A stretch of 45,817 nt of DNA, from assembly GCA_002280515.1 (NCBI GenBank), contig NCEA01000013.1, forward strand, positions 69,194 through 115,010. The letters are read 5' to 3'. The DNA is from Rhodobacterales bacterium 32-67-9. Lineage in GTDB: Bacteria > Pseudomonadota > Alphaproteobacteria > Rhodobacterales > Rhodobacteraceae. The notes below the pieces were generated by a model. The model made no database searches and had not been told where the DNA came from. It saw nothing but the letters and a program-made list of their open reading frames with translations. Below are positions 25,916-45,161 of this stretch, piece by piece. The position numbers were made by a program, and so were the translations under genes. Position 1 is the first letter of the stretch. Each line of letters opens with the position of its first letter.

Positions 25916-25924
25916 CGGATATCC

Positions 25925-26914: not shown

Positions 26915-26918
26915 CGGG

Positions 26919-28115: not shown

Positions 28116-28126
28116 CCTGTCCCCTC

Positions 28127-29647
28127 CTAATCCGTCACGATGAGCGACATGATCCGCTCCTGGCTCGCCTCGGCGGCCGTCAGCTCGCCCACCAGCGCGC
28201 CTTCGTTCATCACGTAGATGCGGTCGCACATGCCCAGAAGCTCGGGCATCTCGGACGAGATCATGATCACGCCCTTGCCCTCTGCGCTCAGGCCGTTGAT
28301 GATGCCGTAGATCTCGAATTTCGCGCCCACGTCGATACCGCGCGTCGGCTCGTCGAGGATCAGCACCTCCGGCCCAGCGAAGAGCCATTTCGACAGCACG
28401 ACCTTCTGCTGGTTGCCGCCCGACAGGTTCATCACCTTCTGGAACACGCTCGGCGTGCGAATGTTCATCGCGGCGCGGTATTTCTCGGCGACCTGGGTTT
28501 CCCTGGCTTCGGTGATGACGCCGTTCGACGACACCGCCGGCAGGTTCGTCAGCGTGATGTTGCGCTGGATCGTCTCGTCAAGGATGAGGCCCAGCGACTT
28601 GCGGTCCTCGGTGACGTAGGCGAGGCCGGCGGCGATGGCCTTCGGCACCGTCGAGACGTCGACGGTTCGCCCGTGGATCGCCACCTCGCCCGAGATGTTG
28701 CGGCCGTAGCTGCGCCCGAAGAGGCTCATCGCAAGCTCGGTCCGGCCCGAGCCCATCAGCCCGGCGATGCCCACGACCTCGCCCTTGCGGACGGTCAGGT
28801 TGGCCGATTTGATCACCTGCCGTCCGGCATGTTCGGGGTGCCAGACATTCCAGTCGCGCAGGTCGAGGATCACCTCGCCGGCGCGGCGGTCGCGTTCGGG
28901 ATAGCGGTGCGCCATGTCGCGGCCGACCATGTCGCGCACGATGCGGGCCTCGGTGATGTCCTCGGTCCGCGCATCCATGGTCGAGACGGTCGTGCCGTCG
29001 CGGATCACCGTCACCGTGTCGGCGACGCGGCGCACCTCGTTCAGCTTGTGGCTGATGATGATCGAGGTGACGCCGTGGGCCTTCAGGTCGAGTAGCAGGT
29101 CGAGCAACGCCTGGCTGTCGGCTTCGGACAGGGCGGCGGTCGGCTCGTCGAGGATCAGGAGCCGCACGTCCTTCGACAGCGCCTTCGCGATCTCCACGAG
29201 CTGCTGCTTGCCGACCCCGAGGCTGTCGACGAGCGTCGCCGGTGTTTCCGAAAGCCCGACCTTCTTCAGCAGATCCTCGGTGCGGCGGAAGGTGTCGCGC
29301 CAGTCGATGATGCCGCCCTTCGCACGTTCGTTGCCGAGAAAGAGGTTCTCGGCGATCGACAGGAGCGGCACCAGCGCGAGTTCCTGGTGAATGATGATGA
29401 TGCCCTTCGCCTCGCTGTCGGCGATGCCGGCAAAGGCGATGGGTCGGCCGTCGTAAAGGATGTCGCCGTCGTAGCTGCCGGCGGGATAGACGCCCGAGAG
29501 CACCTTCATCAGCGTCGACTTTCCGGCGCCGTTCTCGCCGACAAGCGCGTGGATCTCGCCCTCTCGGACCGAAAGGCTCACGCGGTCGAGCGCCTTGACG
29601 CCGGGAAACGTCTTGGTGATGGCGCGCATCTCCAACAGTGGCGTCAT
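28127..29647 (-). CDS. gguA: Sugar ABC transporter ATPase GguA
   Basis: This is a 506-residue protein with two fused ATPase domains, typical of monosaccharide importers (RbsA/XylG/MglA type). The first half has Walker [17 protein letters not shown] and signature [15 protein letters not shown]; Walker B is [13 protein letters not shown]. The second half has [16 protein letters not shown] and [15 protein letters not shown]. The ATG at 29647 begins [17 protein letters not shown] and is preferred to an earlier in-frame start. A strong stem-loop separates it from chvE. Confidence 0.94.
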
Positions 29648-29671
29648 TGTCCTGCCTCGAGCTTTCGGGAA

Positions 29672-29703
29672 AGGGCCGCCCGACCCGTGATGCGGGCGGC
29701 CCT
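29672..29703 (-). terminator. Stem-loop between chvE and gguA
   Basis: The perfect 11-bp inverted repeat AGGGCCGCCCG/CGGGCGGCCCT (29672-29682 with 29693-29703) has a 10-nt loop. It lies just after the chvE stop and likely attenuates transcription or protects chvE mRNA, giving excess binding protein over ATPase and permease. Confidence 0.65.
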
Positions 29704-29727
29704 CCTGTCGCAAACGCGGGGTTGCGC

Positions 29728-30783
29728 TTACTGGATCTGGTCCTTGGTATAGTAACCGGACCCGATCAGGATTTCTTCCCAGTTCGACGCATCGACCGAA
29801 ACCGGTTCGAGCAGGTAGGACGGCACGACCTTCACGCCGTTGTCATAGGTCGAGGTGTCGTTGATCTCGGGCTCGCCGCCCTTCAGCATCGCATCGACCA
29901 TGCCGACGGTCACGCGCGCCAGTTCGCGGGTGTCCTTGAAGACGGTCGAATACTGTTCGCCGGCAAGGATCGACTTGACCGACGGCACTTCGGCGTCCTG
30001 CCCCGAGACGATCGGCATCTTTAGGTCGCCCGAGCCGTAGCCGACGCCCTTCAGGGACGACAGGATGCCGATGGACAGTCCGTCATAGGGGCTGAGCACG
30101 CCCTGCACCTGCTTGTCGGTGTAGTTGGCCGAAAGAAGGTTATCCATCCGCGCCTGCGCCACCGCGCCGTCCCAGCGCAGGGTGCCGACGGTGTCCATGC
30201 CCATCTGCCCCGAACCGATGACGACGGTGCCGGCGTCGATCATGGGCTGAAGCACGCTCATCGCGCCGTCGTAGAAGAAATAGGCGTTGTTGTCGTCGGG
30301 CGAGCCGCCGAAAAGCTCGACGTTGTACGGCCCGTCGCCGAACCTCTCCTTCAGCCCGTTCACGAGGCTGGTGGCCTGCTGGACGCCAACCTTGAAGTTG
30401 TCGAAGGTGGCGTAGTAGTCGACATTGCCGCTGTCGCGGATCAGCCGGTCATAGGCGATGACCTTGATGCCCGAGGCGGCGGCGTTTTCCAGCGCGTTCG
30501 AGAGCGTGGTGCCGTCGATGGCGGCGATCACCAGCACGTCGACGCCCTTGGTGATCATGTTCTCGATCTGGGCAAGCTGGTTCGGAATGTCGTCTTCGGC
30601 ATACTGAAGATCGGTCTCGTAACCGGCGGCGGAGAACTGCTCCACCATCGAGTTTCCGTCCGAGATCCAGCGGGCCGAGGATTTCGTCGGCATCGAAATG
30701 CCAACCGTGCCCTCTGCGGCGGCCTCGAAGGCGAATACCGAGGCGCACATCGCCATTGCGATGGCGAAAGGTCTGAATGTCAT
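29728..30783 (-). CDS. chvE: Monosaccharide-binding protein ChvE
   Basis: This is a 351-residue periplasmic receptor for L-arabinose, D-galactose and related sugars. The signal peptide is [19 protein letters not shown] with cleavage near AAAEG. The mature chain has the type I fold with [25 protein letters not shown]-like [16 protein letters not shown], and [16 protein letters not shown]. It opens the operon and is transcribed away from the LysR gene. Confidence 0.93.
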
Positions 30784-30933
30784 GGCTCTCTCCCTGAATG
30801 GAGGCCCGCCATGTTTGGTCAGGCCCCGCTCCTCCTGTTGGCAAGTCGATTCGACTGTGAAGGATTTCTAGATTGCATCGACATATCCGTAAAATTACAT
30901 TGAGGCTTACTTAGATAACATAAGTGGTATGCA
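30784..30933. promoter_or_regulatory. chvE-lysR divergent promoter region with LysR-type box
   Basis: This 150-bp AT-richer spacer has an inverted repeat ACTTA-N7-TAAGT at 30909-30925 that fits the T-N11-A LysR-box pattern. A possible chvE promoter on the - strand is TTTACG (30888-30893)-N17-TAGAAA (30865-30870). The box would then be centred about 60 bp upstream of chvE's start site, the usual LysR activator position, and next to the lysR start for autoregulation. The promoter is a weak match. Confidence 0.55.
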
Positions 30934-31863
30934 ATGCAGCCGGAATTGAGCCTCAGGCCCGCCCAGTTGCGGCTGGTGGCCGAGATCGCCGAACACGGCC
31001 AGCTTCAACTTGCCGCCGCGGAGATCGCGGTGACCCAGCCGGCCGCGTCGCGGATGCTGTCGGAGATTGAACGGGTGGTTGGCACGGCGCTCTTCCTGCG
31101 CCACCCGAAAGGGATGGAGCCGACTGCGGTCGGCCATGCGGTTGCCAAGCGAGCGCGGGCGATGCTGCGCGAGATGCGGGACCTTGGCCACGAAGTGCAG
31201 ATCCTGCGCGCCGGGCGCGGCGGCTCGGTCCATGTCGGAGCGGTCACCGGTCCGGCGGTCGGCTACCTCGTCCCGGCGATCCAGAGCATCAAGGCAAACG
31301 CCCCCGAAGCTGACATCACCGTCGATGTCGCTCCCTCGCGCCAGCTTCTGCGCGACCTTGCCTCGGGCCGGCTCGACTTCGCGCTGGCGCGGTTCCTGCC
31401 GGATTTCGACAGCCGCGACTTCGATGTCGAACCGGTGCGGGACGAAAAGGTCTCGCTCCTGGTGCGGTGCGATCATCCGCTGTCTTCGGCGCTATCGGTC
31501 GCGCTCGCCGATCTTGCCGGGTTCGAGTGGGTGATGCAGGAAAGCGGCGCGCCGATCCGCGAGGCGATGAACAACGCCTTCGGATCGTCCGGGCTGCGGG
31601 CGCCGGGCAACATCGTCAACAGCTCTTCACTTCTGCTGATGATCGCCTATCTCTCGCGCACCGAGGCGATCGCCCCGGTCTCGGAAGAGGTCGTGCAACT
31701 GCTGGTCGGCGAACCGGTCAATGCCGGGTTCACGACGCTGAGCCTCGACCAGCAGATCCGGGTGTCGCCCTATTTCCTGCTCAGCCTGCGCGACCGGCCG
31801 CTGTCGCCGCTGGCGCAACGGCTGAAGGATGTCGTGCTTCTGGAATCGCGCGGGCCGCGCTAA
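30934..31863 (+). CDS. gbpR: LysR-family regulator, GbpR-like
   Basis: This 309-residue regulator has an N-terminal winged helix-turn-helix (LQLAAAEIAVTQPAASRMLSE, near residues 24-44) and a C-terminal inducer-binding domain. The divergent position next to chvE matches GbpR, which controls the ChvE-type galactose/arabinose uptake operon in rhizobia. It ends 8 bp before the convergent alginate-lyase-like gene. Confidence 0.85.
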   Translation: MQPELSLRPAQLRLVAEIAEHGQLQLAAAEIAVTQPAASRMLSEIERVVGTALFLRHPKGMEPTAVGHAVAKRARAMLREMRDLGHEVQILRAGRGGSVHVGAVTGPAVGYLVPAIQSIKANAPEADITVDVAPSRQLLRDLASGRLDFALARFLPDFDSRDFDVEPVRDEKVSLLVRCDHPLSSALSVALADLAGFEWVMQESGAPIREAMNNAFGSSGLRAPGNIVNSSSLLLMIAYLSRTEAIAPVSEEVVQLLVGEPVNAGFTTLSLDQQIRVSPYFLLSLRDRPLSPLAQRLKDVVLLESRGPR

Positions 31864-31871
31864 CCCGTCGG

Positions 31872-32915
31872 CTAACGCCGCCACAGCGCCGTCTGATTGC
31901 CGCCGAGCTTGGTGTAGATCAGCGGCCGCAGATCCGCCGCCAGCGCCTCAAGCACATCCGATCTACGCAGGATCTGATATTGCTCGATCCACGCGAGCTG
32001 GAACGCTGTCAGCTGCTCGGACCCGTCGAAGAGGCTCTGCTCGACGCCGGTGATCGCCCGCGTCCGGGCACCGTCAGAGAGGTCCGAGACGGCAAAGTCG
32101 ACGATCCGGTGAATGGCGCCGCCGCAGTGCCGGCTCGCGGGAATGCCCTGCCGCTCCAGAAGGACCACGGCGGTCACAAGGGGCGCGATGGCGTGCAACT
32201 GGTAGTGCAGCGCGAACGCCCCGCGGCTCATCTCCTGCGGCAGGCTGCCGTCAGGATTGGCCGAACAGAGAACCTCGGTGATCCCGGCATCGGCCCAGTC
32301 GCGCAAGTCCGCGCTGTCGGTCTGCACCGACACGGCGGCGGCGGCGAGTCCGGCCCAGGCGCGCAGGTTTCCCCTTTGTGCGCCCGACGGTGCTTCGGGC
32401 CAGAACGCCATCTGCGCCCGCATGCGGCGGTCTAGCCAGTCGAGGATCCCGGCACGGCTCGGATTGTCGGGGGCGTAGGGCAGGGTTTGCCACAGGATCA
32501 GCGCGAAGGCCGCGTAGCGCGATCCGATCGTCAGCCGGACCGTCTCGGTCCCGAGATCGGAGAGCGCATCGGCTTCGGCCCAGCCTCCAAGTTGTTCGAG
32601 GACGCAGGTGGCGGCCCGTTGCCGGTCCCTGACGCGGCCCGAATAAAGGGCCTCGGTCCGGTCGGCGAGCTGATCGATGAAGCGATCGAGCGGTTTCAAT
32701 GCGTCTTCGGCTTCGGCCTCGCGGGCGGGGTCTACGGTCGCACGGGACGCGTCATCTTCGGCATAGCGGCTGGCGAAGGACAGCGAGATGATCGGGGAAG
32801 GAGCGGTGCCGCAGGTCGCGTCATCCTGCGCCAGGGCCATGCCGGCCATGAAGGCCGCCGCCGGCAGTCCGGCCATCAAATGCGCGGCCCTCGCAATGAG
32901 GTGGCGGCAAATCAT
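31872..32915 (-). CDS. algL: AlgL-like alginate lyase family protein, catalytic His missing
   Basis: This is a 347-residue periplasmic protein of the PL5 alginate lyase (AlgL) family. The signal peptide ends near residue 29 (ALA-QDD). In active AlgL, catalysis uses an Asn-His pair in the motif NNHxYW plus an Arg and a Tyr seven residues apart. Here Arg231 and Tyr238 are kept (MSRGAFALHYQ), but the Asn-His pair reads Asn183-Leu184 in RGNLRAWAGL. The catalytic His therefore seems lost. The ATG at 32915 overlaps the stop of the AlgK-like gene (ATGA). It may have kept only the protective or scaffold role of AlgL. The alignment is from memory. Confidence 0.8.
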   Translation of the reverse strand: MICRHLIARAAHLMAGLPAAAFMAGMALAQDDATCGTAPSPIISLSFASRYAEDDASRATVDPAREAEAEDALKPLDRFIDQLADRTEALYSGRVRDRQRAATCVLEQLGGWAEADALSDLGTETVRLTIGSRYAAFALILWQTLPYAPDNPSRAGILDWLDRRMRAQMAFWPEAPSGAQRGNLRAWAGLAAAAVSVQTDSADLRDWADAGITEVLCSANPDGSLPQEMSRGAFALHYQLHAIAPLVTAVVLLERQGIPASRHCGGAIHRIVDFAVSDLSDGARTRAITGVEQSLFDGSEQLTAFQLAWIEQYQILRRSDVLEALAADLRPLIYTKLGGNQTALWRR

Positions 32916-35653
32916 TTCCGCACCGTCGCGGCCAGAAGCGTCATCATGTCCCTTGCCCCTGGATTGCCGAGGTTTTCGGCCTCTTGCAGCCAGGTGCCGG
33001 CATATTGCGGATCGGCCGGGATGCCGAGGCCAAAGGCCAGCGCGAAGGCGTATTCGACCATCGCATCGCTGTGCCCGGCTTCGGCCGCCCGCAGCAGCCA
33101 CTGGGCCGAGGCGTTCAGATCGGCGTCGCCGGACGCATCGGTCCGCAGCAGCATCCCAAGCTCGAACTGCGCCGCGCTGTCGCCGGCGTCCGTGACGCGG
33201 TCCGCGATGATGCCGATATCGACGCGCGCCGCGATCGCCGCCCGCAGCCGGCGATCGGCGCGCCGGTACTGCGCGAGCACCCAGGAGAGGGCGGCGGGAT
33301 CGCCCGCCCTGAGGATGGTTTCGAGATGCCCTGCCGCAGTGTCGGGATCATAGCCAGGATCATCCGGATCGGTCAGTTGCAGAAACAGCCGCCGCGCGGC
33401 GTCCACGTCGCTCCTGGCCAGCGACACGGCGCCGAGCGTCGCCACCGGGACCGGCTTGCCCCGGTCGAAATCGGATATCTGCCGGTCGGACAGGCCAAGC
33501 TTCGCCAGGACGTGCCCGGTTTCCATCGCCAGCCCGACCCGGAGCCAGTGCAGGGCTTGATCGGGCCGGTTTCGGGCCGCATAGGTATCGGCAAGCTCGG
33601 CGGTATCCTTTGTGCCGCAGGTCATGATCGAAATCGCGCGGTCCATGTAATCGTCGAACCTGTCGTCCGGAACATAGGGCGCGGCATACATCAGCGCGAG
33701 GAAATCGCCCCGCGCCCCGATCGTCTCGGCATAGGTCTGGTAGACCGCTTCGCCATCCCTGCCGGTCAGGCGTTGCAGGAGCCGGATCGCCGCGCCTTCG
33801 CCGCGCTCCGCCGACTGGGTCAGAAGTGCTTCGATCTCTTCCGCGACCTCCGGATAGCGCCCTGCATGTTCGACCAGCACCACGGCGAGGTCGAGAGAGA
33901 TTGACGGGCCGATATCGAGATAGGCGCGGCGAAAGACCTCGATCGCACTATTGCGCTCGCCGCTTGTCAGGGCGAGTTCGAATTCCTGTTTCACGTAGTC
34001 CTCGAGCGCCTGATCGCTCCGGCTGACCCGGTCGGCCCAGAACCGCAAGGCTGCATCCGACGCGACCGGATCGGACTGGATGAGTTGCAACTGGTCCGCC
34101 GTCGAACTTCCGTGGCCGAGAAGCGCGAGGCTTTGAATCTTGGCGATCGCCTCGGGTTCCATCGCGGTGTCGTACTTGGCGAGGTCGGTGGGCGACACGC
34201 CGACCGGCGCAATGTCGGCCGCGCGGTAGTTGCCGGCCCAGAACCGCGCCTCTGACAGCATTGGCGCTGCGGGCAATTGGCAGCGATAGAGCGCGTCGAG
34301 AGCGTCCATCGCCTCGCCCTTTCCAAGCCGCGACACCGCGTCGATCAACAAAGTCTCGGCGCGGCTCGCCTTTGCCGCCTCGTCGCGGTAGCGCAGCAGG
34401 ATTTCCGCCAGGAGCAGGATCGCTTCCGGGTCGTCGCGCGCTGCGGCGCGTTCCAGAAGGGCCGTCGCCTCGTCCTCGGCTGCCCATCGTCCCCGATGCT
34501 GGAGGATTTCCTGCGCAAGCTGTGTCAGGACCGAGGCCGGCGCCCCCGGCAGAGCCGCGATTTCGCGCAGATAGAGAAGGCGGTCGTTCTCCGCGGCCGA
34601 CAGTTCGCCCGTCAGGCGGGCTTCCAGTTGGAGATAGGGCACCGCCGTCCGCCGGCGCACCGCGCCGACACGGTTGAAGTTGTGGCCGAGAATCCTGCGG
34701 ATTTCTGCCTCCGTCGCGGCGCCGCTGTCGACCACGGCCGAAACCGCCTCCGGTCCGACCGCATAGCCGTTCCTGACGGCGAGCCGGAGGTAGTGCAGCA
34801 ACGCCGCGTTGTCCTTGTCCGGCGCGGTCGCGGCGAGGTGGTGTTCCACCACCCGCCACGCGGCCTCGGCCCCGCCCATGTCGGCCGCGAACTTGCGCCA
34901 GGCATAGGCGAGGTCCGGGTTCGGCGTCAGGATGTCGCCATCCTCGTATTCTCGGGCCATCCGTTCGGCACGGTCGCAGATCCCCCTGTTCATCTGCCCG
35001 ACCATGCCGCCGAAGGCGAGCGTCGCGGTTTCGTCGATGGAAAGGTCCCATGTCTCGACACTCTCGCCGGCGAGCATGAGGCGCAGCACCTCCATCAGGG
35101 CGTCCGCGTTGCCGGCAAAGGCGGCCGTCGTGATCAGGCTCTGCGCGAGTTCGGGGTTCTGCGCGACACCGATACCGCCCTGGTAAAGCCGCGCCAACCG
35201 GACCCTCTGACTGTTCGAAAGCTCGTCGGCCCGGCGGGCGAGGCCGTCGATCGCCCCGAGGTCTTGCAATGCAACGAGGCGACCGGCGGCGATGTAAAGG
35301 TCGATGCGGGCGAAGGCCTCCTCGACGCCCGCGAAACCGGGGTCAAGCTCAGCCCGACGGGTGATGAGGAGCATGATGAAGTCGAACCAGCGGTCCGCAT
35401 CGTCATTGGTGAACTGCCGGATGTCGCGGATCAGGTAGCCGACAAAGGCCGCCTCCTGCACTGCGCTTGCCTGCTGCTCCCCGTCTTGCGCGCCGTCCTG
35501 TATCTCCGTCGCCTCGCGCTCTTCCGGCTCGGCGTTGCAGACGTCGCTGCCCGGAAGGACAGGCGGCATGAAGTTGAGCGTCAGCCGTTCCGCCTGTGCC
35601 GGCTGCGTCGCAAGCAGCGTGGCGCAGATCGCCAAGAGGAGGAGGTTTCGCAT
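32912..35653 (-). CDS. AlgK-like periplasmic Sel1/TPR repeat protein
   Basis: This is a 913-residue protein with a signal peptide (MRNLLLLAICATLLATQPAQA) and helical repeats throughout. Clear Sel1-type repeats occur near the start (RLYQGGIGVAQNPELAQSLI) and end (WLLRAAEAGHSDAMVEYAFA, then FGLGIPADPQYAGTWLQEA). In the alginate order it takes the place of AlgK, the scaffold that links the periplasmic complex to the exit pore. It is about twice AlgK's length and lacks a lipoprotein Cys after the signal. The start at 35653 follows an AGGATAGG site just after the AlgX stop; a start at 35671 is possible. Specific homology to AlgK is inferred from repeats and context. Confidence 0.75.
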   Translation of the reverse strand: MRNLLLLAICATLLATQPAQAERLTLNFMPPVLPGSDVCNAEPEEREATEIQDGAQDGEQQASAVQEAAFVGYLIRDIRQFTNDDADRWFDFIMLLITRRAELDPGFAGVEEAFARIDLYIAAGRLVALQDLGAIDGLARRADELSNSQRVRLARLYQGGIGVAQNPELAQSLITTAAFAGNADALMEVLRLMLAGESVETWDLSIDETATLAFGGMVGQMNRGICDRAERMAREYEDGDILTPNPDLAYAWRKFAADMGGAEAAWRVVEHHLAATAPDKDNAALLHYLRLAVRNGYAVGPEAVSAVVDSGAATEAEIRRILGHNFNRVGAVRRRTAVPYLQLEARLTGELSAAENDRLLYLREIAALPGAPASVLTQLAQEILQHRGRWAAEDEATALLERAAARDDPEAILLLAEILLRYRDEAAKASRAETLLIDAVSRLGKGEAMDALDALYRCQLPAAPMLSEARFWAGNYRAADIAPVGVSPTDLAKYDTAMEPEAIAKIQSLALLGHGSSTADQLQLIQSDPVASDAALRFWADRVSRSDQALEDYVKQEFELALTSGERNSAIEVFRRAYLDIGPSISLDLAVVLVEHAGRYPEVAEEIEALLTQSAERGEGAAIRLLQRLTGRDGEAVYQTYAETIGARGDFLALMYAAPYVPDDRFDDYMDRAISIMTCGTKDTAELADTYAARNRPDQALHWLRVGLAMETGHVLAKLGLSDRQISDFDRGKPVPVATLGAVSLARSDVDAARRLFLQLTDPDDPGYDPDTAAGHLETILRAGDPAALSWVLAQYRRADRRLRAAIAARVDIGIIADRVTDAGDSAAQFELGMLLRTDASGDADLNASAQWLLRAAEAGHSDAMVEYAFALAFGLGIPADPQYAGTWLQEAENLGNPGARDMMTLLAATVRK

Positions 35654-35658
35654 GCGGC

Positions 35659-36981
35659 CTATCCTCGACACAGGGAGACGCGGGGAAGGTCGTCCGGATC
35701 GACCTCGGCCTCAATCTCGACATGGGCGATGCCGTCGGGCCAGAGGCCGGTCAGCGGCATGTAGAACCGGCCGGTCAGCGGCTGGCCCTCGGCCCGCACG
35801 ACCGGCCGCGTCCGCTCCTGCCCGGTCTTCGAGAAGAAATGAAATTCGGCGCGGGCCGGTAACGTGGCACGCGTGTCGAAGAGAAGGTTCAGCGCAGGCT
35901 CCTGCGGCTGGCCGGACAGATCGACGGTAATGCGGTTCTCTCCGGCCGGCGCCACGGCCAGGTCCGCGACGCAGTCGTTGCGCGCGGCGGCGACAAGTTC
36001 GCGGAACGGCTGGTCGCCATGCAGACCCAGGTTGAGCCAGACCGGCACCTCCCAAACCAGCGTGTCGGGCGGGGTCTGGCGGAAGGCGTCAGAGGTCAGA
36101 TAGGCCGAAAGTGCCGCGACCGGATCGTGGGGAACGCTGCCCATGGTGACCTCGCGCCCGGACAGTTCCGAGAGAAAGCCGGCGAAGTTGAGCGCCGGAT
36201 CACCGGTCATCTCGGTGCCCGCGACGATCACGGGCGCCGCGCTTTCGGTCACCTCGGGGGGCTGTCGGGTGGTCTTGAACCCCATCGTCGTGACCTCGGG
36301 CAAGGATGTCAGGCAGTGCATCTGCAGGTGCAGCCGATCCAGCGACGGCAAGATCGTGGTGCCTGTCGGGTCGGTCCTGTATTCGGCCGGCGCCGGGCCA
36401 TCGCGCAACTGGTCGGCGATCCCGCTCGCCAGCGCAAAGAGACCGGTATTGGTCAGCCGGGGGTCGGCCCCGAAGAACACCGACTCTCCCGAGACCGCCG
36501 TGCTCAAGGCGCGCCGCGCGTCGACGGTTTTAACGCCCGCCGCCCTGAGGCGCGCCAGCGTATCTTGGTAGATCGCGAGCGCGAGAGCCGGGTCGTAGCC
36601 ATAGGCGACACTGTCGGGGCCGAGATACTGCGGCATCGCCAGTGCCTTGGTCGGCACCGGAACCACGATGAACGTCGTGCCCCGCTCCGCGAGGATGTGC
36701 GACAGGGTGCCGATGGCGGTGACCACCTCGTCGGAAAAGCGGTTGTAGGTCAGAAGGTCCGGGTCGACCCGGAAGAAGACCCCCTGACGGCCCTCGACCG
36801 AGGGCGTCGGCGCGGCGGACAGGTCGCGGCAGCCATAAAGCGTTTGTGCGGCGAGGGGCGCGGGCGCCATGGTGGCAATGGCAAGGCCGACGACCCAAGC
36901 CGCAGATGTCGGCGCGGCCGCTCGCAGCAGGGAGCGCACCGTGCGACCTGCCCGTAACCACGCAGTGCTGCTTGGTGTCAT
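35659..36981 (-). CDS. algX: AlgX-like protein with degenerate acetyltransferase site
   Basis: This 440-residue protein matches AlgX over the SGNH-like domain and C-terminal carbohydrate-binding region: DPALNFAGFLSEL, then YLTSDAFRQTPPDTLVWEVP, then the Cys-containing end. AlgX acetylates alginate with Asp174-His176 (DxHW motif) and Ser269 (GTS). Here the motif reads Asp173-Pro-Arg175-Leu, and GTS has become Gly255-Thr256-Glu257, so Ser and His are both lost while the overall fold seems kept. The start MTPSSTAWLRAG (36981) leads into a signal segment ending near PLAAQ. The missing acetyl supply genes (algI, algJ, algF) fit loss of activity. Confidence 0.82.
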   Translation of the reverse strand: MTPSSTAWLRAGRTVRSLLRAAAPTSAAWVVGLAIATMAPAPLAAQTLYGCRDLSAAPTPSVEGRQGVFFRVDPDLLTYNRFSDEVVTAIGTLSHILAERGTTFIVVPVPTKALAMPQYLGPDSVAYGYDPALALAIYQDTLARLRAAGVKTVDARRALSTAVSGESVFFGADPRLTNTGLFALASGIADQLRDGPAPAEYRTDPTGTTILPSLDRLHLQMHCLTSLPEVTTMGFKTTRQPPEVTESAAPVIVAGTEMTGDPALNFAGFLSELSGREVTMGSVPHDPVAALSAYLTSDAFRQTPPDTLVWEVPVWLNLGLHGDQPFRELVAAARNDCVADLAVAPAGENRITVDLSGQPQEPALNLLFDTRATLPARAEFHFFSKTGQERTRPVVRAEGQPLTGRFYMPLTGLWPDGIAHVEIEAEVDPDDLPRVSLCRG

Positions 36982-37101
36982 CGGCACGTTTCCATTGCCC
37001 GTATGCGCGGCGTCTGCGCCGTCGTTTTCTGCCTTGTGCGGTTTTACAGCATGGACCGGCGCTTCGCCAAGCACTTCGCGCCCGGCGGTGCGGCGGCAGC
37101 G

Positions 37102-38625
37102 CTAGAGCGCGCAGGCCGGCGGGGCGAGGCGGTCGGTCGGACTCGCGCCGCCGGCGTCGAGCAGGATCGGCGTCTGCCCTCTCAGATCCGCGATGATGGC
37201 CCGGAACTGCTGTGTGATGTCACCGTCCAGAAGCCGGGGAAACTGATTGGACAGGTCATTGCCCTTCAGCGTTATCGCCGCGCCCGCCGCCGTGGCCAGC
37301 CCGGAGCCGTTTTCGCGCAGCAGGTTGTCGGTGATATAGGTTACCTCGCCCTTTTTCTGGCCAGACACCCACACGCCGGCATTCTTGTTGCCGATGATCT
37401 TGTTGCGATGCACGAAGGCGTCGGTACTGTTGCGCACCTCGACGCCCTTCTGCCGGTCGTCGAGGATCACGTTCTCCTCGACCCGGCCACAGGTAACGCC
37501 CTGCAACTTCACCCCGCCACCGTTGCGCCGCCAAATCAGGTTGCCGTTGACCGAGACATTGTCGCTTCCCGAAGATATCAGGAGCCCGGCGCGCGACCCT
37601 TCGAGGATGATGTTGCCGGTGACCCGCGTCCCGCCCGATCCGTTCGAGACCCGGACGGCATTCGTCGGCGAATTCCCGGTGAAGAGGTTGCCGGCGACGA
37701 CGGCGTTCGGCGCGTGCGACAGCAGCAGGGGATTGCGCCGCATGTCGAAGAACCGGTTGTCGCGCAATATCGCGTTCGGCACGCCGACGACGGTCACGGT
37801 GACCATGTCCTCGAAGCGCGTGTTTTCGATCACGGTCCCCCTGGCGGGCCGCATCGTCGGATAGGCCACGATCGACAGCCCCGAGAACTTCTCGGTGCTG
37901 CCGAAGCCGAGATGCTTCAGCGTCGCTTCGGAGAAATGGACCGAACCGGACCCGACGGAAGCGATGAAGGGCGCGAATTCCTCGTTCGCGCCGCTCGGCT
38001 CGGCGGTCGCCGAAATCTCGGCGCCGAAGATTTCGATCCGGCCGTAGCTGACGATGAACGCGCCGTCGCTGCGGCTGAGCTTCAGCACGTCGCCAGGGCC
38101 GAGGCGCAGGGTCGCATCCGCGCCGATGACCAGCGGGACGCGCAAGAGGTCGGCGCCGGAGTCGATCTCACGCCCGACGAAGCGGTTGGTCATAAGGCTT
38201 CGCAGCTGCGAAAGCGTCAGGACACCGGATTCGACCTCGATCGCGTCGGTGCCGTTGACTGCGCTGGCCTGAAGGACCGCGAGGTTGCTCTTGCCCCCGT
38301 AGACCTGCGACAGGGACGCGAGGGCAAAACGGCTGTCGGTCCAGCCGATCTTTGCGGGCTCGTCGGGGGCGGCATATTCGGCCGTCGAATGCCAGGGCTC
38401 GCGCAGGACATGCCCGGCCAGCCCCACGGCCAGCGTGCTGACCGGCAGGGACCGCGCCCCGTCGTCGGTCTTGAGCGCCTTCGACAGCGCCGTGAGTTCG
38501 GCGCGCAGCTCCATCAGCTTCCAGTCGGGTGCCGCCGCCGCCGACCCCGCAAAGAGGAAAAGACCGAGGCCGGCGGCCACGGTCGTTTTCCAGATTGCGG
38601 CGATGCGTCGGCCTACATCAGCCAT
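37102..38625 (-). CDS. algG: AlgG-like right-handed beta-helix protein without the DPHD motif
   Basis: This is a 507-residue periplasmic protein with a signal peptide (cut near AAAAPDW) and a beta-helix of repeated NxxF/N-x-I turns, as in mannuronan C5-epimerase AlgG. In AlgG the catalytic His lies in a DPHD motif. In my alignment the corresponding residues 300-303 read LLLS, and no DPHD occurs anywhere in the protein; a His at 304 is two residues off register. It is therefore probably not an active epimerase. The start overlaps the end of the algA-like gene by 8 bp, and 120 bp separate it from algX. Confidence 0.77.
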   Translation of the reverse strand: MADVGRRIAAIWKTTVAAGLGLFLFAGSAAAAPDWKLMELRAELTALSKALKTDDGARSLPVSTLAVGLAGHVLREPWHSTAEYAAPDEPAKIGWTDSRFALASLSQVYGGKSNLAVLQASAVNGTDAIEVESGVLTLSQLRSLMTNRFVGREIDSGADLLRVPLVIGADATLRLGPGDVLKLSRSDGAFIVSYGRIEIFGAEISATAEPSGANEEFAPFIASVGSGSVHFSEATLKHLGFGSTEKFSGLSIVAYPTMRPARGTVIENTRFEDMVTVTVVGVPNAILRDNRFFDMRRNPLLLSHAPNAVVAGNLFTGNSPTNAVRVSNGSGGTRVTGNIILEGSRAGLLISSGSDNVSVNGNLIWRRNGGGVKLQGVTCGRVEENVILDDRQKGVEVRNSTDAFVHRNKIIGNKNAGVWVSGQKKGEVTYITDNLLRENGSGLATAAGAAITLKGNDLSNQFPRLLDGDITQQFRAIIADLRGQTPILLDAGGASPTDRLAPPACAL

Positions 38626-40036
38626 GGCTCGTCATGGACAGGGACTTCGGCGACTCGACCGGGATATCGAAGGTCATGAACAGAAGCTCCGTCTCGATAT
38701 CGGCGCAGTTGGTGATGCGGATCGGACCATCCGGGTCGGAATAGATCCGGCCGCCTTCGCGAACGGTCTTCTGCCAGGTCGGGCCTTGCGCATGAACCAT
38801 GCCCTTCACCACGATGACTTGGCGGCCATGCCCGGATTCGAGGTCGATGCAGGCGCCGATCGGGATCTGGCTGGTGCCAAGCTGGAAGCAGTCGGTCTGG
38901 TGGATCTGCTCCAGCCCGCGCGGCATCGAGAACGGCACCATCGTCGGCGCCGCGCCGGCGTAATGTTCGGCTTCGGGGCGCCCGCGCGCCTTGAGATTGT
39001 CGACCACGTCCTTGACGCTCTGCGATGTGGAGCGGCGGGTGACGAGAACCGCGTCGGTGGTGTCGACGACGATGATATCCGACAGGCCGACGATGCTGAC
39101 CAGCCGGGTTTCTGAGCGGACCATCGTGTTCTTGCTGTCCACCACGATGACGTCGCCTTGCAGCACGTTGCCGTTGCTGTCGGGCTTGGAGACGTCGAAC
39201 ATCGCCGACCAGCTTCCGACATCGCTCCAGATCACGTTCAGGGGAACCGTAGCGATCCGGTCAGTTTTCTCGAAGACCGCCTTTTCGGTGGGCTCGGCCT
39301 TCGTCTGGCTGAAGGCGTCGGCCTCGAGGTAAAGCGCCTCGGGGAAGGGGCTCGCCCCCATGACCGAACGTTTCACCGCGACGGCGGTCTCGGGGTCGAG
39401 CTTCTGGTATTCCTCGATGATCGTTCGGGCCGAGAACATCGAGATACCGGATGCCCAGAGCGCCGACTTGCCGTCAACAAGCTCCTTCGCCTTGGCCAGT
39501 GGCGGCTTCTCGATGAAGCTCTCGACGCTGTGCAGGCCGGGGAAGTCGGCGAGCTCGGCGCCCTTGGAAATGTAGCCGAACCCGGTTTCCGGTCCGCGCG
39601 GTTCTATCCCGAAGGTGATGATCCGGCCTGCGGCGGCGGCATCGATCTGGCGGATGATCGTCTCGTTGATCTCACCTTCGATGACGTGATCGGCGGGGAT
39701 GACCAGGATGATCGCATTGGGGTCGCGCCCGAAGAGCGTCTGCGACGCGGCGAGGACGGCCGGTCCGGTATTGCGGCCCATCGGTTCGCAGATGATGCGC
39801 GATCCCGACTGGATTTCGCGCAACTGGCTGACGACCGTACCGCGGTGACGCAGATTGGTCACGATGACCGGGTCGTGGAAATACTCGCCGCGATGGCGCT
39901 GGATCGCGGACTGGAAGAAGGTCAGCGAATCCTTGCCGCCGATCTTCTGGAACTGTTTCGGGCTGCGGGTGCGCGAAATGGGCCAGAGCCGGGTTCCGCT
40001 TCCTCCGCAAAGGATCAGTGGATAAATCTTTCTCAC
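38618..40036 (-). CDS. algA: Mannose-1-phosphate guanylyltransferase, AlgA-like with degenerate isomerase half
   Basis: This 472-residue protein should make GDP-mannose from GTP and mannose 1-phosphate. The nucleotidyltransferase half is intact: LCGGSGTRLWPISR (residues 9-22), IPADHVI (113-119), FIEKP (174-178) and WSDVGSW. AlgA also has a C-terminal cupin with phosphomannose isomerase activity and a metal-binding HHH-x-EHW motif. Here the cupin-like tail reads IDLESGHGRQVIVVKG without that motif, so isomerase activity is doubtful. The GTG at 40036 (MRKIYPL) is chosen over an upstream TTG because AGAGAGG precedes it. Confidence 0.84.
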   Translation of the reverse strand: MRKIYPLILCGGSGTRLWPISRTRSPKQFQKIGGKDSLTFFQSAIQRHRGEYFHDPVIVTNLRHRGTVVSQLREIQSGSRIICEPMGRNTGPAVLAASQTLFGRDPNAIILVIPADHVIEGEINETIIRQIDAAAAGRIITFGIEPRGPETGFGYISKGAELADFPGLHSVESFIEKPPLAKAKELVDGKSALWASGISMFSARTIIEEYQKLDPETAVAVKRSVMGASPFPEALYLEADAFSQTKAEPTEKAVFEKTDRIATVPLNVIWSDVGSWSAMFDVSKPDSNGNVLQGDVIVVDSKNTMVRSETRLVSIVGLSDIIVVDTTDAVLVTRRSTSQSVKDVVDNLKARGRPEAEHYAGAAPTMVPFSMPRGLEQIHQTDCFQLGTSQIPIGACIDLESGHGRQVIVVKGMVHAQGPTWQKTVREGGRIYSDPDGPIRITNCADIETELLFMTFDIPVESPKSLSMTSHG

Positions 40037-40056
40037 GTCACGCCGCCTCTCTGCCC

Positions 40057-41109
40057 CTAGTTCCAAAGGAAGGATTTCGTCAGCCGCACCTGCGCGAACT
40101 TGCCGATATCCTCCTCCGTCAGAGCCCCCTCGGGTGCGATCAACTGGACCGGGACGAAGAGCTCTCCGCTCATGGCCGCGGTGTTGGCGGACTTGCCTGC
40201 CACCGCTTCGACCGGGATGGACCTGCCGTCTGCCAGATCCAGGTAGACCCGATCGCCCTTCATCGCCCGTGCCAACCCTTCCACACTCATCAAGGCCTGA
40301 ACACTGAGGTCAAAGTTATTAACCAAAATTGTCAATATTACGTCGGTTGGAAGGACTGTAAGACCCTCCGCAACCCCTTGATTTACAATGGCTTCACAGT
40401 CGCATGGCATCTGGAAATTCAAAACATCGCCACTATTTGCGTTAACGGAAAAAAGCACCTCGCCCTTCTTTGCTTCGGGGTTGAGGTAGGACACCTGACC
40501 GGCCGTCGTCGCCTGCATAGGCTGGCCGGCGCGTTCGATCAGGACCGGGTGCATCTCGTAGCCGGTCGTGTAGCGGACATAGAGCGCGCTCGCCGCGGCA
40601 AGTGCGAGGACCCCCGAGAGGAGGGCCACCGCGATACTGCGGTAGCGTTCGGTCCATTTCTGCTCGACGACCTTCTTCTCTTCCTTGGGCTTGACCGGGC
40701 CGGAATAGCTCATCACCGCGCCGAGGGTCACGAAGTCCCCGGCGATGAAACTGTTGAGCACGAACCGCAACTGCGCGACGTGATCGCCGGTCGGGTCGGC
40801 GAATTTCAGGACCAGTTCGTCCCGCTCCTCTCCGACGACGACCACCTCGGGATAGATCGAGAGCGAAAAGTTCTGGAACTCGAACTGCAGCCGGACGGCG
40901 TGGCGCGTGCCCTTGACGAGGAATATCTCGTCCTGCGCCGCAAGCTGGATCGTCGTCAGCGAGATCTTCCTGCCGGCGAACTTCTGCCCGTAGACATGCA
41001 GCGTGAAGGGCAGCGACACCGACGGGTGTTCGTTCTCGAAGCCGAACTCGTAGGGCACCGGCACGCTGCCGCCGCCGAGGTTCAGGTCTCTCAGTTCCGC
41101 CGTGATCAT
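40057..41109 (-). CDS. alg44: Alg44-like co-polymerase with degenerate PilZ domain
   Basis: This 350-residue protein matches Alg44 in layout: an N-terminal PilZ-like region (about residues 30-137), one membrane helix (158-178), and a periplasmic HlyD-like part. Alg44 activates Alg8 by binding cyclic di-GMP through RxxxR and DxSxxG. Neither motif is visible; the second reads KISLTT. Either control by cyclic di-GMP is lost or another ligand is used. Bases 40321-40440 are unusually AT-rich (53 of 120 G+C). The ATG at 41109 is used; a GTG at 41115 is possible. Confidence 0.77.
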   Translation of the reverse strand: MITAELRDLNLGGGSVPVPYEFGFENEHPSVSLPFTLHVYGQKFAGRKISLTTIQLAAQDEIFLVKGTRHAVRLQFEFQNFSLSIYPEVVVVGEERDELVLKFADPTGDHVAQLRFVLNSFIAGDFVTLGAVMSYSGPVKPKEEKKVVEQKWTERYRSIAVALLSGVLALAAASALYVRYTTGYEMHPVLIERAGQPMQATTAGQVSYLNPEAKKGEVLFSVNANSGDVLNFQMPCDCEAIVNQGVAEGLTVLPTDVILTILVNNFDLSVQALMSVEGLARAMKGDRVYLDLADGRSIPVEAVAGKSANTAAMSGELFVPVQLIAPEGALTEEDIGKFAQVRLTKSFLWN

Positions 41110-41125
41110 GCCCACCGCGATCGCC

Positions 41126-42604
41126 TCAGATTATGCTCAGGTACATGACCGCAAGCGTCAGCCAGCAGATCGTCAATGCGTGATGTGCCGCCGATTCCGC
41201 GGCTTTCAGCCGATCGAACAGCCCCGCCGTCGCCCCGCCGCCGGTCGAGGCCTGGCGGGTCCATTTCTGCTTGTCGAGGCGGAAGAGGACGAAGGTCTTG
41301 ATCGCCGCGCCGACGATCTGGGAGAAGTAGAGGATCGGCGGATGCGTGACCGGGAACCAGACACCGTTGAAGAGCGCGATGAAGGCGCAGAAGATGTAGC
41401 GCGTGGCCAGCACCCAGCCAATGTAGAGCGGGACCACGTAGGGCGTGACGAACAGCGCCGTCACGAGGACCGAGATCGGACCGACGAGCGTCGTGAACAT
41501 GCTGACCCGCTGGTCGAGGATCGACCACCAGGTGAAGAACCCCATCGTCCTCGGGCTGAGCCGCAGGGCGCGTCCGTTCGTGCGCATCATGTTGCCGAAC
41601 CAGCGTACCATCAGCGTCTTGGCGCTGTCGTAGAACGTCGCGCGCGGTTGGGTCTCGACCGAGGCCGACATCATGTCGGGCAGGTAGAGCATCTTGTAGC
41701 CGTTGCGCAGCAGCCAGAACCAGGTCGACTTGTCGTCGCCGGTCAGGAAGGTGACGCGGCCGAGACGCCAGTGGTTGAGATAGTCGTGCCCGACGCCCTT
41801 CACGAACCCCGGATCGGTGGCGAGGCAGGCGCGGAAGACCGACATGCGGCCCGTCAATGTCAGCACCCGCTGCGACAGGCCCATCGAGCACATCATCATC
41901 TGGCGCTGGTTGAAGCGCAGGACGAACCAGTCCTTGAAGAGGTTGTCCTTGTCGACGAGCGCCGCCTCGTGCGTGGTCAGCGCCCCGACATGGGGATCGT
42001 TGAACCACGGTGCGGATTGTTCGACCACGTCGAGCGGCACGACCGTGTCGCCGTCGACGAAGATCATGATGTCGTGTGGCGTGGGCGAGAAGCTCGCGAG
42101 AATACGCAGCGCCCGCGCCATCGCGTCGCGCTTGCCGTTGGACTTGATACGGTCCATCACCAACTTCACCGACGACATGTCGATCGGCATCGTGGCGTAG
42201 ATCTCGCGGATCAGCCGCTCGTCCGCGCCATCGACGACGGAGGACACGATGGTCGCTCCGTCCCGCGCCGCCGCCGCCGCGCGAAACAGCCGGCGGTAGA
42301 CCATCAGCGTCGTGTCTTGGTCGACCATGTAGGAGGTCACCATGAAGAAGGCGTGCCGGCGCCGGCCGCTTTCGCGGTCGGCCTTGAACGCGGCGGCCTT
42401 GCGGCGCGGATAGACGAACCGCCGGAAGAGGATCGCCCGGCAGAGGTTCAGCATCGCCCAGGAATAGCGCCAGGCACCAAGGAAGCCGATCACGATGATC
42501 GCGTGCTTCGCCGCCCTCGGGTCGCCGACGAACGCCGCCGGCACCACCAGGGTGAGAAGCGCGATGACCGCGAAATAGGCGATGTGGGTGAGGGCACGGA
42601 CCAC
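41126..42604 (-). CDS. alg8: Alg8-like polymannuronate synthase (GT2)
   Basis: This 492-residue inner-membrane glycosyltransferase should polymerise GDP-mannuronate. It has N-terminal helices, the DGD site (184-186), TGDDKSTWFW (288-297) and RWFGNMMRTNGRAL (334-347), close to P. aeruginosa Alg8, and C-terminal helices. The catalytic motifs look intact, so the machine probably still makes polymer. The start is a GTG at 42604, 7 bp after the algD stop; the ribosome site is weak. algD and alg44 flank it as in pseudomonads. Confidence 0.9.
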   Translation of the reverse strand: MVRALTHIAYFAVIALLTLVVPAAFVGDPRAAKHAIIVIGFLGAWRYSWAMLNLCRAILFRRFVYPRRKAAAFKADRESGRRRHAFFMVTSYMVDQDTTLMVYRRLFRAAAAARDGATIVSSVVDGADERLIREIYATMPIDMSSVKLVMDRIKSNGKRDAMARALRILASFSPTPHDIMIFVDGDTVVPLDVVEQSAPWFNDPHVGALTTHEAALVDKDNLFKDWFVLRFNQRQMMMCSMGLSQRVLTLTGRMSVFRACLATDPGFVKGVGHDYLNHWRLGRVTFLTGDDKSTWFWLLRNGYKMLYLPDMMSASVETQPRATFYDSAKTLMVRWFGNMMRTNGRALRLSPRTMGFFTWWSILDQRVSMFTTLVGPISVLVTALFVTPYVVPLYIGWVLATRYIFCAFIALFNGVWFPVTHPPILYFSQIVGAAIKTFVLFRLDKQKWTRQASTGGGATAGLFDRLKAAESAAHHALTICWLTLAVMYLSII

Positions 42605-42611
42605 GGCAGGA

Positions 42612-43928
42612 TTACCAGCAGATACCGGCGTAGGTTCCGTTGCTGACCATGTCGCGGTGCAGGCGGGTGAGGTCGACGACAGGCCGCTTCCCGGCTGCGG
42701 CCTTCAGCTTGTCGACCGCCTCCTTGTAGTAGTTGCCGACCAGAACCGCGCCCGACCCTTCGATCAGCCGGTCGAGGTCATCGACCATCCGCTCCTTCAG
42801 GTCGGGAATGCCGTCGTTGCCGCGTCCGGCGCCGGGGGTGCCGGCGTCGAACGCCTCCTGCACGAAGGGGTCGTAGATGTCGACCTCGATCCCCTTGGTG
42901 ATCAGCCGCGCTGCGAGTGCGACGAGCGGGCTTTCCCTCAGATCGTCGGTGCCGGGTTTGAAGCTGATGCCGACAAAGCCGATCCGCTTCGCGCCCGATG
43001 CCTCGACCATTCGCTCGGCCCGCGCGATCTGGGCATCGTTCGCCTCAAGCACCGCCTCGAGCATATGCGCTTTGGTGTCGGTGCTCCGCGCGAGGAAGCG
43101 CAGCGCCCGCACGTCCTTCGGCAGGCACGATCCGCCGAAGGCGAAGCCGGGCCGCATGAAGTAGGGCGACATCGCGACCTTGTCGTCAGAACAGAGGATC
43201 TCCATCACCGTCTGGCCGTCGATGCCGGAGGCCTTGGCGATGTTGCCGATCTCGTTGGCGAAGGTCACCTTGACCGCGCGCCAGGCGTTGGAGGTGTATT
43301 TCACCAGTTCGGCGGTGCCGATGTCGACCTTGTGGATCTTGCAGGGCAGCGCTTCGTTGAGCGCGGTCAGCACGTCTTCGGTCGGCTTGTCCATCGTGCC
43401 GAAGACGATCAGGCCGGGGTCGTAGTAATCCCGGATCGCCGTGCTTTCGCGCAGGAATTCCGGATAGTAACCAAGCCCGAAGCCTTCGCCGGCGGTCTTG
43501 CCCGATGTCTCTTCGAGCGCCGGGATGCAGCAACGCATCGTGCTGCCCGGCACGATGGTGGAGCGCATGACGACCGAGTGATAGCCCGGCTTGTCTTTGA
43601 GCGCCGCGCCGATGTTCCGACAGACCGCCTCGACATAGGTCAGTCCGACCGATCCGTCAGGGGCGGAGGGCGTTCCGACGCAGATGAACGAGGCGTCGGT
43701 GTTCCTGATGGCGAAACCGGTATCCGACGTCGCGGTCAGCTTGCCCGCCGCCACAACTTCTCGAACCAGTTCGTCGATGCCTTCCTCGACGATCGGCGAG
43801 ACGCCGTCATTGATCGACTTGACCTTTCCGGGGTCGATGTCGACGGCAATCACGTCGTGGCCGTCCCTGGCCAGACAGGCCGCCGAAACGACGCCAACAT
43901 AACCGATACCGAATACGCTGATCTTCAT
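42612..43928 (-). CDS. algD: GDP-mannose 6-dehydrogenase AlgD
   Basis: AlgD (438 residues) oxidises GDP-mannose to GDP-mannuronate, the committed step of alginate synthesis. The N-terminal Rossmann motif is FGIGYVGVVSAACL; the catalytic Cys268 lies in GGSCLPKDVRAL at the same number as in P. aeruginosa AlgD. NPEFLREST is conserved in the form YYPEFLREST, and the protein ends GICW as AlgD does. This separates it from UDP-glucose dehydrogenases. The ATG at 43928 is preferred to an earlier in-frame start that runs into the promoter region. It is the first gene of the operon. Confidence 0.94.
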   Translation of the reverse strand: MKISVFGIGYVGVVSAACLARDGHDVIAVDIDPGKVKSINDGVSPIVEEGIDELVREVVAAGKLTATSDTGFAIRNTDASFICVGTPSAPDGSVGLTYVEAVCRNIGAALKDKPGYHSVVMRSTIVPGSTMRCCIPALEETSGKTAGEGFGLGYYPEFLRESTAIRDYYDPGLIVFGTMDKPTEDVLTALNEALPCKIHKVDIGTAELVKYTSNAWRAVKVTFANEIGNIAKASGIDGQTVMEILCSDDKVAMSPYFMRPGFAFGGSCLPKDVRALRFLARSTDTKAHMLEAVLEANDAQIARAERMVEASGAKRIGFVGISFKPGTDDLRESPLVALAARLITKGIEVDIYDPFVQEAFDAGTPGAGRGNDGIPDLKERMVDDLDRLIEGSGAVLVGNYYKEAVDKLKAAAGKRPVVDLTRLHRDMVSNGTYAGICW

Positions 43929-44201
43929 GTTTGTTACCCCAGCAAACTTTTGTCTGAGGAGCCGTATCGCGGACGATTTGGTGGAATTTTTGTCTAAATT
44001 GAGGACGACACGGGTCAAATTGTCTCTACTGTCGCGGCAAACGTAACGATCCTCGAGCTGCGGCAGGCGGTGTAGCGTGGCCGAATTCGCACCCGTTACC
44101 TTGAATCTATGGGATAATCACCTTGCGTGACCTGGGCCATTTCGTCCCCGCAGCGAATTGTGTCGCCATTTGGATCGGCACCGGGGAACGCGCCGCGCTT
44201 G
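43929..44201 (-). promoter_or_regulatory. algD promoter region with TTGTCT repeats
   Basis: This 273-bp AT-richer spacer has a plausible sigma70-like promoter on the - strand: TTGACC (44013-44018)-N16-TAGACA (43991-43996), about 55 nt before algD. Three direct repeats of TTGTCT (+ strand reading) end at 43955, 43995 and 44025, so they are 40 and 30 bp apart, on one helical face. They flank the promoter and could bind a regulator. No gene is seen in the spacer. Confidence 0.5.
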
Positions 44202-45161
44202 CTACTTCAGACGAAGCGGCCGGGGTGCCCCCGATTTCGGTGCCGACAACCGGCCGGCAGAGCCGCCGTCGCGCGCTTTGTCGGCCGCCGGGCGCAGATG
44301 CGTCGCGACCCGGCCGATGCGCTCCAGCATGGGCTCGTCCCGCGCCATGAACGCGATGTCGAGCGCGATCTTCCTGCCGGAATAGGTTGCCAGGGCTGAA
44401 TTCACGGCGGCGGTCACCGCGCCCTGATCGCCGTCGTCGACGGCCGAGAACGCCACCAGAAATCCCGACTGCCCGTCATCGTATTCGGCACGCAGCAACA
44501 GCGCCCTGTCGTAAAGCTCTGCCACCGCTCCGAGCTTCTCGGTCAGCGCCAGTTGCAGCGTGTCGGGGAAGGAGTGCGGCGTAAGCAGCGCCTTGAACCG
44601 CCCCGGAGCCGCAGCCGGTGTCTTGACCTGTGCCGCGTCTTCCAGCGTGTCGCAGATCCAGTCGATGGCATCGCCGGGGATCAGCATCGCCGACGGCGCT
44701 TCGCCCATGTTGAGCGCGATCCCGATGTCGCGGCCGCGCATGAGGTTGAACACGTCGCGGCCAGTGGCGCGGGAGGTTGGCGCGTCGTAGCCCGTCAGTT
44801 CCATGACGCGTTCCGCCAGGTCGAAGACCAGCACGAATTGCCCGCCCTCGATCGGGATGATCTTCGGTTCCGGAACCTCGTCCTCGCCGGTCACATCGAG
44901 GAGGATGAAGAGATCGGACGCGGCCAGAACCTGATAGAAGCGAAGAAGCTCGGCCTCTCCGCCGCTCATCATCCCCGAATAGGCGCGATCAATGGCCGTC
45001 ACTTCCTTGTCCGTCATCTCGGGTTTGTCGGCATCATCCGCTGGTACGCCCGCGACGGTGTCGACAAGGGACGGCTCCGTTTCCAGCTCGTACTGGACCT
45101 TTCGCCGCGACCGGAAGGCCACCTTGTCACCGTTCGGAAGCCGAATTCGCACCTGCCTCAT
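44202..45161 (-). CDS. SseB-family protein
   Basis: This 319-residue cytoplasmic protein has an SseB N-terminal-like domain (LRFYQVLAASDLFILLD then IIPIEGGQFVLVFDLAERV, GRDVFNLMRGRDIGIALNM) and an SseB C-terminal-like domain (GAVAELYDRALLLRAEYDDG). SseB proteins are named from a type III secretion helper, but chromosomal homologues in this group have no known role. An N-terminal stretch of about 50 residues (MRQVRIRLPNGDKVAFRSRR) is unusual. AAGGAA precedes the ATG. It reads towards algD, but the 273-bp gap with a promoter suggests separate transcription. Confidence 0.8.
   Translation of the reverse strand: MRQVRIRLPNGDKVAFRSRRKVQYELETEPSLVDTVAGVPADDADKPEMTDKEVTAIDRAYSGMMSGGEAELLRFYQVLAASDLFILLDVTGEDEVPEPKIIPIEGGQFVLVFDLAERVMELTGYDAPTSRATGRDVFNLMRGRDIGIALNMGEAPSAMLIPGDAIDWICDTLEDAAQVKTPAAAPGRFKALLTPHSFPDTLQLALTEKLGAVAELYDRALLLRAEYDDGQSGFLVAFSAVDDGDQGAVTAAVNSALATYSGRKIALDIAFMARDEPMLERIGRVATHLRPAADKARDGGSAGRLSAPKSGAPRPLRLK

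Follow-up and report, generated by a model that had tools for sequence, protein, structure and literature searches.

An eight-gene alginate-type operon in a Rhodobacterales genome

The window, a 45,817-nucleotide stretch of contig NCEA01000013.1 from Rhodobacterales bacterium 32-67-9, contains eight minus-strand genes in the order algD-8-44-A-G-X-K-L, and all eight reading frames are open. First in the operon, here as in the nearest relatives, is algD (42612..43928, -), which encodes a full-length GDP-mannose 6-dehydrogenase; its frame opens at 44018, homology begins at Met 43928, and the product matches 1mfz with 417 bits as against 234 bits for the next best, UDP-glucose dehydrogenases. It is followed by alg8 (41126..42604, -), a GT2 polymannuronate synthase-like gene assigned from its Pfam match and its relatives, and by an alg44-like gene (40057..41115, -) whose product joins a PilZ fold to a transmembrane helix and a periplasmic adaptor-like domain. 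A GT2 Alg8 is thereby paired with an Alg44-type PilZ/periplasmic partner, a combination expected of an alginate operon. Further along lie an algA-like GDP-mannose pyrophosphorylase gene (38618..40066, -), little conserved in its C-terminal isomerase half; an algG-like gene for a right-handed beta-helix without the DPHD motif (37102..38625, -); and an algX-like gene for an SGNH-family protein with replaced active-site residues (35659..37074, -), which reads D-P-R instead of D-x-H (His to Arg; 36457..36465, -) and G-T-E instead of G-T-S (catalytic Ser to Glu; 36211..36219, -). The series closes with an algK-like gene (32912..35671, -), predicted from a Sel1 match and a structure model to encode a 919-aa Sel1/TPR superhelix with no beta-barrel, and an algL-like gene for a PL5 protein (31872..32915, -), whose frame opens at 33101 and likely starts at 32915, in an ATGA overlap with the algK stop. 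In algL, a Leu codon (32364..32366, -) takes the place of the active-site His, which is His202 in P. aeruginosa.

In Pseudomonas and Azotobacter the corresponding operon runs algD-8-44-K-E-G-X-L-I-J-F-A. The window shares with it homologues of AlgD, 8, 44, A, G, X and L, a Sel1/TPR K that may correspond to AlgK and likely the same precursor, but has no algE, algI, algJ or algF, has replaced active-site residues in AlgX, AlgG and AlgL, carries an Alg44 without c-di-GMP motifs, and encodes a K roughly double the size of AlgK. A sequence-only reading of the window had reported both the gene order and the four absences. The order is real, and profile searches of the host's own genome (3.72 Mb in 60 contigs, 93.6% complete) bear out the absences: there were no matches to the AlgE profile PF13372, to the AlgI (MBOAT) profile or to the AlgF profile, and no AlgJ emerged, the sole ALGX-family match being the operon's own algX.

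Three architectures and a probable single loss of acetylation genes

Among 394 genomes drawn from the host's family, 31 encode a relative of Alg8 that is about 55% identical or closer. A contig scan gave 177 relatives, of which the best 80 were used (53-96% identical), and 30 further regions were added, 22 of them carrying the operon family. By gene content these loci fall into three main types. Type III is laid out D-8-44-A-G-I-J-T-X-F-K-L, type II D-8-44-A-G-T-X-K-L, without I, J and F, and type I D-8-44-A-G-X-K-L, from which T is gone as well. With duplicates included there were 5 loci of type I, 35 of type II and 57 of type III, the last including some that end before K or L owing to the length fetched; 8 loci were of other content, and six too short for typing were excluded from the type counts. 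In a type III locus, L128, Pfam identifies I, J and F as MBOAT, ALGX and AlgF, respectively. Gene T (about 250-270 aa; for example L128:10243-11034, +, and L118:11455-12204, -) is common to types II and III, gave no Pfam match in the two copies tested, and appears as the last part lost on the way to type I.

The type I layout of the window recurs in L037 (MAG WOFB24), L117, L038 (Boseongicola aestuarii) and L061 (Halovulum marinum), and the named type I and II loci belong to Paracoccaceae or Roseobacteraceae, except for a few with unranked titles. In an Alg8 tree of 95 rows, built by a quick search with an outgroup of five rows (L138-L142) and subject to a long-branch warning, types I and II together form one clade within type III (SH-aLRT 100), so that acetylating and non-acetylating operons are separated by one change and type I arises twice. 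Because types I and II are nested in this way, the acetylation genes were probably lost once and T twice. For the tree, as for the AlgX and Alg44 counts below, 13 duplicate loci were dropped; duplicates were kept for AlgG (97 rows) and AlgJ (56 rows), and L144-L146 were left out of the analyses. The reduced layout persists in 35 distinct type I/II loci, which are not 35 confirmations of any reading since on the tree I, J, F and the AlgX triad disappear in one event. The earlier interpretation of the window is supported only in part: the gene absences stand, while the eight-gene set turns out to be the end of a stepwise reduction.

In three named genomes a type II cluster coexists with one of type III (L044/L082, L049/L086 and L060/L100), and in each the type III copy has neither algD nor algA. 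In another locus, L043 (Pseudophaeobacter leonis), alg44, algA and K appear as split reading frames, reflecting either decay or sequencing error.

Loss of the AlgX triad together with I, J and F

Acetylation by P. aeruginosa AlgX needs D174, H176 and S269, as reported in PMC4148444. The equivalent Asp/His/Ser triad stands intact in 45 of 46 type III rows; the remaining row, L109, is truncated. Not one of the 35 type I/II rows has the full triad. In the window these positions hold D, R and E, so the catalytic residues of an O-acetyltransferase are not in place. Among type I/II proteins the Asp is always kept (35/35), and the His is replaced by Arg in 33 rows, by Lys in one and by Gln in one; the Ser column is mostly Glu and otherwise variable (E, A, D, G, K, R, T, S). 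Two of the 35, L038 and L062, have Ser in the aligned column without the His. Of the 56 type III AlgJ rows, by comparison, with duplicates counted, 55 retain DxHW and 54 retain GTSxS. The genomes with two clusters provide an internal control, as acetylating and non-acetylating clusters there occupy one genome: the AlgX site is replaced in each type II copy and the triad is kept in each type III copy. The earlier proposal of an alginate backbone without acetylation is strengthened, since the active site of AlgX has been lost along with the acetylation genes.

Searching for AlgX across the class gave matches in 7 of 385 genomes. The three best of the more distant alphaproteobacterial AlgX proteins examined (L155, L156 and L157) all keep D, H and S; L158-L163 were covered by motif scan only, on one strand for L158-L161 and L163 and on both for L162. 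Among these hits, three of them examined closely, there was no sign that I, J and F had been lost a second time independently, an event that could have served to test the link with AlgX.

Changes common to all types in AlgG, AlgL and Alg44

Catalytic residues are also missing from AlgG and AlgL, and this loss in the retained AlgX, AlgG and AlgL was missed by the sequence-only reading. The DPH motif is absent from AlgG in the window and in 97/97 rows, duplicates included, leaving these proteins without the DPHD signature of the epimerase, and when a 30-sequence profile is aligned to 4ozz (138 bits) non-catalytic residues fall on DPHD. Positions conserved to at least 85% are occupied mainly by Asn, Gly and hydrophobic residues; His, Arg, Lys, Glu and Tyr are not among them, and a single Asp lies outside the matched core. 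A review (PMC4444821) describes the His of DPHD as the probable proton abstractor, and its reference list includes a 2003 title stating that the AlgG protein, and not its activity, is required for polymer formation.

In AlgL, the active-site His is Leu in 44/44 aligned rows, so the His/Arg/Tyr set of a PL5 lyase is incomplete, with the Arg and Tyr equivalents kept in 98% of rows and an N-L-R-A-W motif present in all 44. P. aeruginosa AlgL H202A is reported to lack activity in vitro and to behave as wild type in vivo (PMC8829089), and for this reason AlgL here may still cleave weakly and is more aptly described as attenuated than as inactive.

The PilZ fold of Alg44 is present. Motifs by which PilZ domains bind c-di-GMP are RxxxR and [DN]xSxxG, and these occur in 1/81 and 0/81 rows, respectively, with the 13 duplicate loci dropped. 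All of the AlgG, AlgL and Alg44 changes are found in types I, II and III alike; with type III included, they do not track the loss of acetylation.

One might argue that these proteins are still enzymes with reassigned sites, with AlgL working by another mechanism through N-L-R-A-W, the Asp/Arg pair of AlgX serving another activity and AlgG binding or modifying polymer differently. The invariance of N-L-R-A-W beside the conserved Arg and Tyr of the old AlgL site would fit this, as would the recurrence of the same residue, Arg, in place of the AlgX His. However, the Ser position of type I/II AlgX is variable, and the strongly conserved columns of AlgG offer no His, Arg, Lys, Glu or Tyr and only that one Asp outside the core. 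On balance, we regard reassigned sites as unlikely.

Selection on the eight genes

All eight genes are under purifying selection, with weaker constraint on AlgX. Compared with L037 and L117, their dN/dS values range from 0.045 to 0.341, the value for AlgL against L117 being rough, as a long reading frame overlapping K was used. AlgX has the highest value against L037 (0.341), the second highest against L117 (0.306), and, at 0.280, the highest of the computable genes against L038, a comparison that gave no value for AlgL because synonymous sites were saturated. The high values for AlgX also fit relaxed constraint. I, J, F and the AlgX triad have gone together, yet AlgX, AlgG, K and AlgL have been kept under purifying selection.

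The route through the outer membrane

The absence of AlgE, which the earlier reading had treated as a feature of this operon, is supported for both operon and genome but is not special to it, since the acetylating type III clusters whose layout was mapped have none either: the gaps between their genes hold I, J, T and F. Across the 35 genomes searched with PF13372, 32 of which carry the operon family, three gave matches and two of these were above the cut-off. The latter, G323 (contigs C17 and C20) and G373 (C281), are type II genomes with the match on contigs other than that of the operon. Judged by PF13372, a profile that a divergent barrel could escape, the whole alphaproteobacterial operon family seems to lack AlgE, so that the polymer's way out of the cell calls for an explanation.

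Several candidate exits were considered and set aside. An unlinked AlgE in the host's own genome finds no support, PF13372 having no match there. A pore hidden in K was rejected on the model of the 919-aa protein, which is all helical, with no strand of at least 3 residues (mean pLDDT 80.5). The genome does contain two Poly_export (Wza-like) genes, on contigs C23 and C32, which show only that another export system exists. Finally, clustering of flanking reading frames from 35 loci gave no downstream family common to most, and with that the idea of a conserved flanking exporter was dropped.

A proposed polymer-guiding line without modification

According to PMC9734138, deletion of AlgI, AlgJ or AlgF in Pseudomonas leaves secretion intact and deletion of AlgX does not. 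The parts gone from types I and II are those that serve acetylation only, and the parts kept are those needed for secretion; this parallel leads us to think it fairly probable that the operon is an alginate-family, synthase-dependent exopolysaccharide line from which modification has been removed, with mannuronan as its product. With the decorating parts missing or stripped of active-site residues, what is left of the set may serve chiefly to lead an undecorated polymer out of the cell. AlgA and AlgD would supply GDP-mannuronate, and Alg8 with Alg44 would polymerise it and pass the chain through the inner membrane. In the periplasm, the beta-helical AlgG, the SGNH-like AlgX, the long Sel1 protein K and AlgL would form a guiding and housekeeping scaffold that also keeps the periplasm clear. 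The polymannuronate so made would be unacetylated and, as AlgG lacks the DPHD motif, probably unepimerised, and it would exit through an unlinked outer-membrane pore. Scaffold role, enzyme activities, product and exit route are all inferred here.

A polymer that is not alginate-like, made by an Alg8 that uses another sugar nucleotide in a different polysaccharide system of common ancestry, strikes us as improbable. The type III clusters without AlgD and AlgA (L082, L086 and L100, in genomes that also have a type II cluster) show that the link of these two enzymes to the operon is not absolute, and a divergent polysaccharide lyase of family PF14099 is a frequent companion of type II clusters; nevertheless, AlgD in the window is a full-length GDP-mannose dehydrogenase by a wide difference in score and stands first in the operon. 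That the operon is a decaying relic, on its way out after losing its pore and acetylation genes, would accord with the failure of PF13372 to find a pore in the genome, the high dN/dS of AlgX among the eight and the split frames of L043, but it was rejected on the dN/dS values against two relatives, with eight open frames in the window and the persistence of the layout in distinct loci counting against it as well, and we give it scarcely any credence.

Returning to the guiding line without modification, its meaning lies in a separation of functions. In Pseudomonas it takes mutation to separate the secretory from the enzymatic roles of AlgX, AlgG and AlgL, and here evolution seems to have separated them. 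The operon series puts the scaffold question within reach of a test and leads one to expect mannuronan producers in nature. More tentatively, and with some doubt on our part, these bacteria may be such producers, possessing a complete periplasmic export line in which AlgG, AlgX and AlgL are kept without their usual catalysis, with no AlgE and no c-di-GMP control by way of Alg44. In that case, polymer guiding would be the core function of all three, and another outer-membrane route for alginate-type polymers would exist. The 2015 review PMC4444821 states that no mannuronan-producing organism had been identified in nature; were the product pure mannuronan, the operon would thus provide a natural source of a polymer with no known natural maker as of that review. 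Its laboratory mannuronan strains with mutant AlgG are similar in keeping AlgG without epimerase activity and in making mannuronan, but they are laboratory mutants rather than natural organisms.

Comparison with known operons

Among the closest counterparts are the type III clusters, for example those of Loktanella (L073), Yoonia (L065), Cypionkella (L099), Rhizobium (L096) and Roseibium (L116). These share the core order, an Alg8 that is 53-61% identical in the named loci, the same AlgG, AlgL and Alg44 changes and the lack of algE between genes, and differ in having algI, algJ, T and algF and in keeping the AlgX triad. Alginate operons that have lost transport or modification loci are already known: PMC7112194 describes "atypical alginate operons" with loss of outer-membrane transport or modification loci. 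The likeness lies in those losses; the accessible text of that paper is confined to the loss of genes in bacteria from environmental or deep-sea sources and contains neither a Rhodobacterales alginate series nor active-site loss. The reduction series and the active-site loss are a variant on that theme, and among the open-licence papers searched we found none on this alphaproteobacterial series or its active-site loss.

Flanking genes

Upstream of algD the window encodes a 319-aa protein (44202-45161, -) with no Pfam or NCBIfam match, and look-alikes, as judged by eye, occupy the same place in L117 and L038. On the other side, adjoining the operon at 24173-31863, lie a LysR regulator, sugar-type ABC transporter genes and an IlvD/Edd dehydratase, which are probably a separate sugar-acid catabolic cluster. 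In many type II clusters, and likewise in L061, the gene immediately upstream of algD encodes the divergent PF14099 polysaccharide lyase (for example L044:7456-8391, -, and L050:7373-8308, -); its flank cluster comprises 14 loci, including one pair of duplicates, with Pfam tested on two, and PF14099 has no match in the window's genome. In type III, a LuxR/GerE-type regulator is found upstream of algD (for example L064:7617-8315, +), in a flank cluster of 10 loci with Pfam tested on one, and in one of these loci the gene lies downstream.
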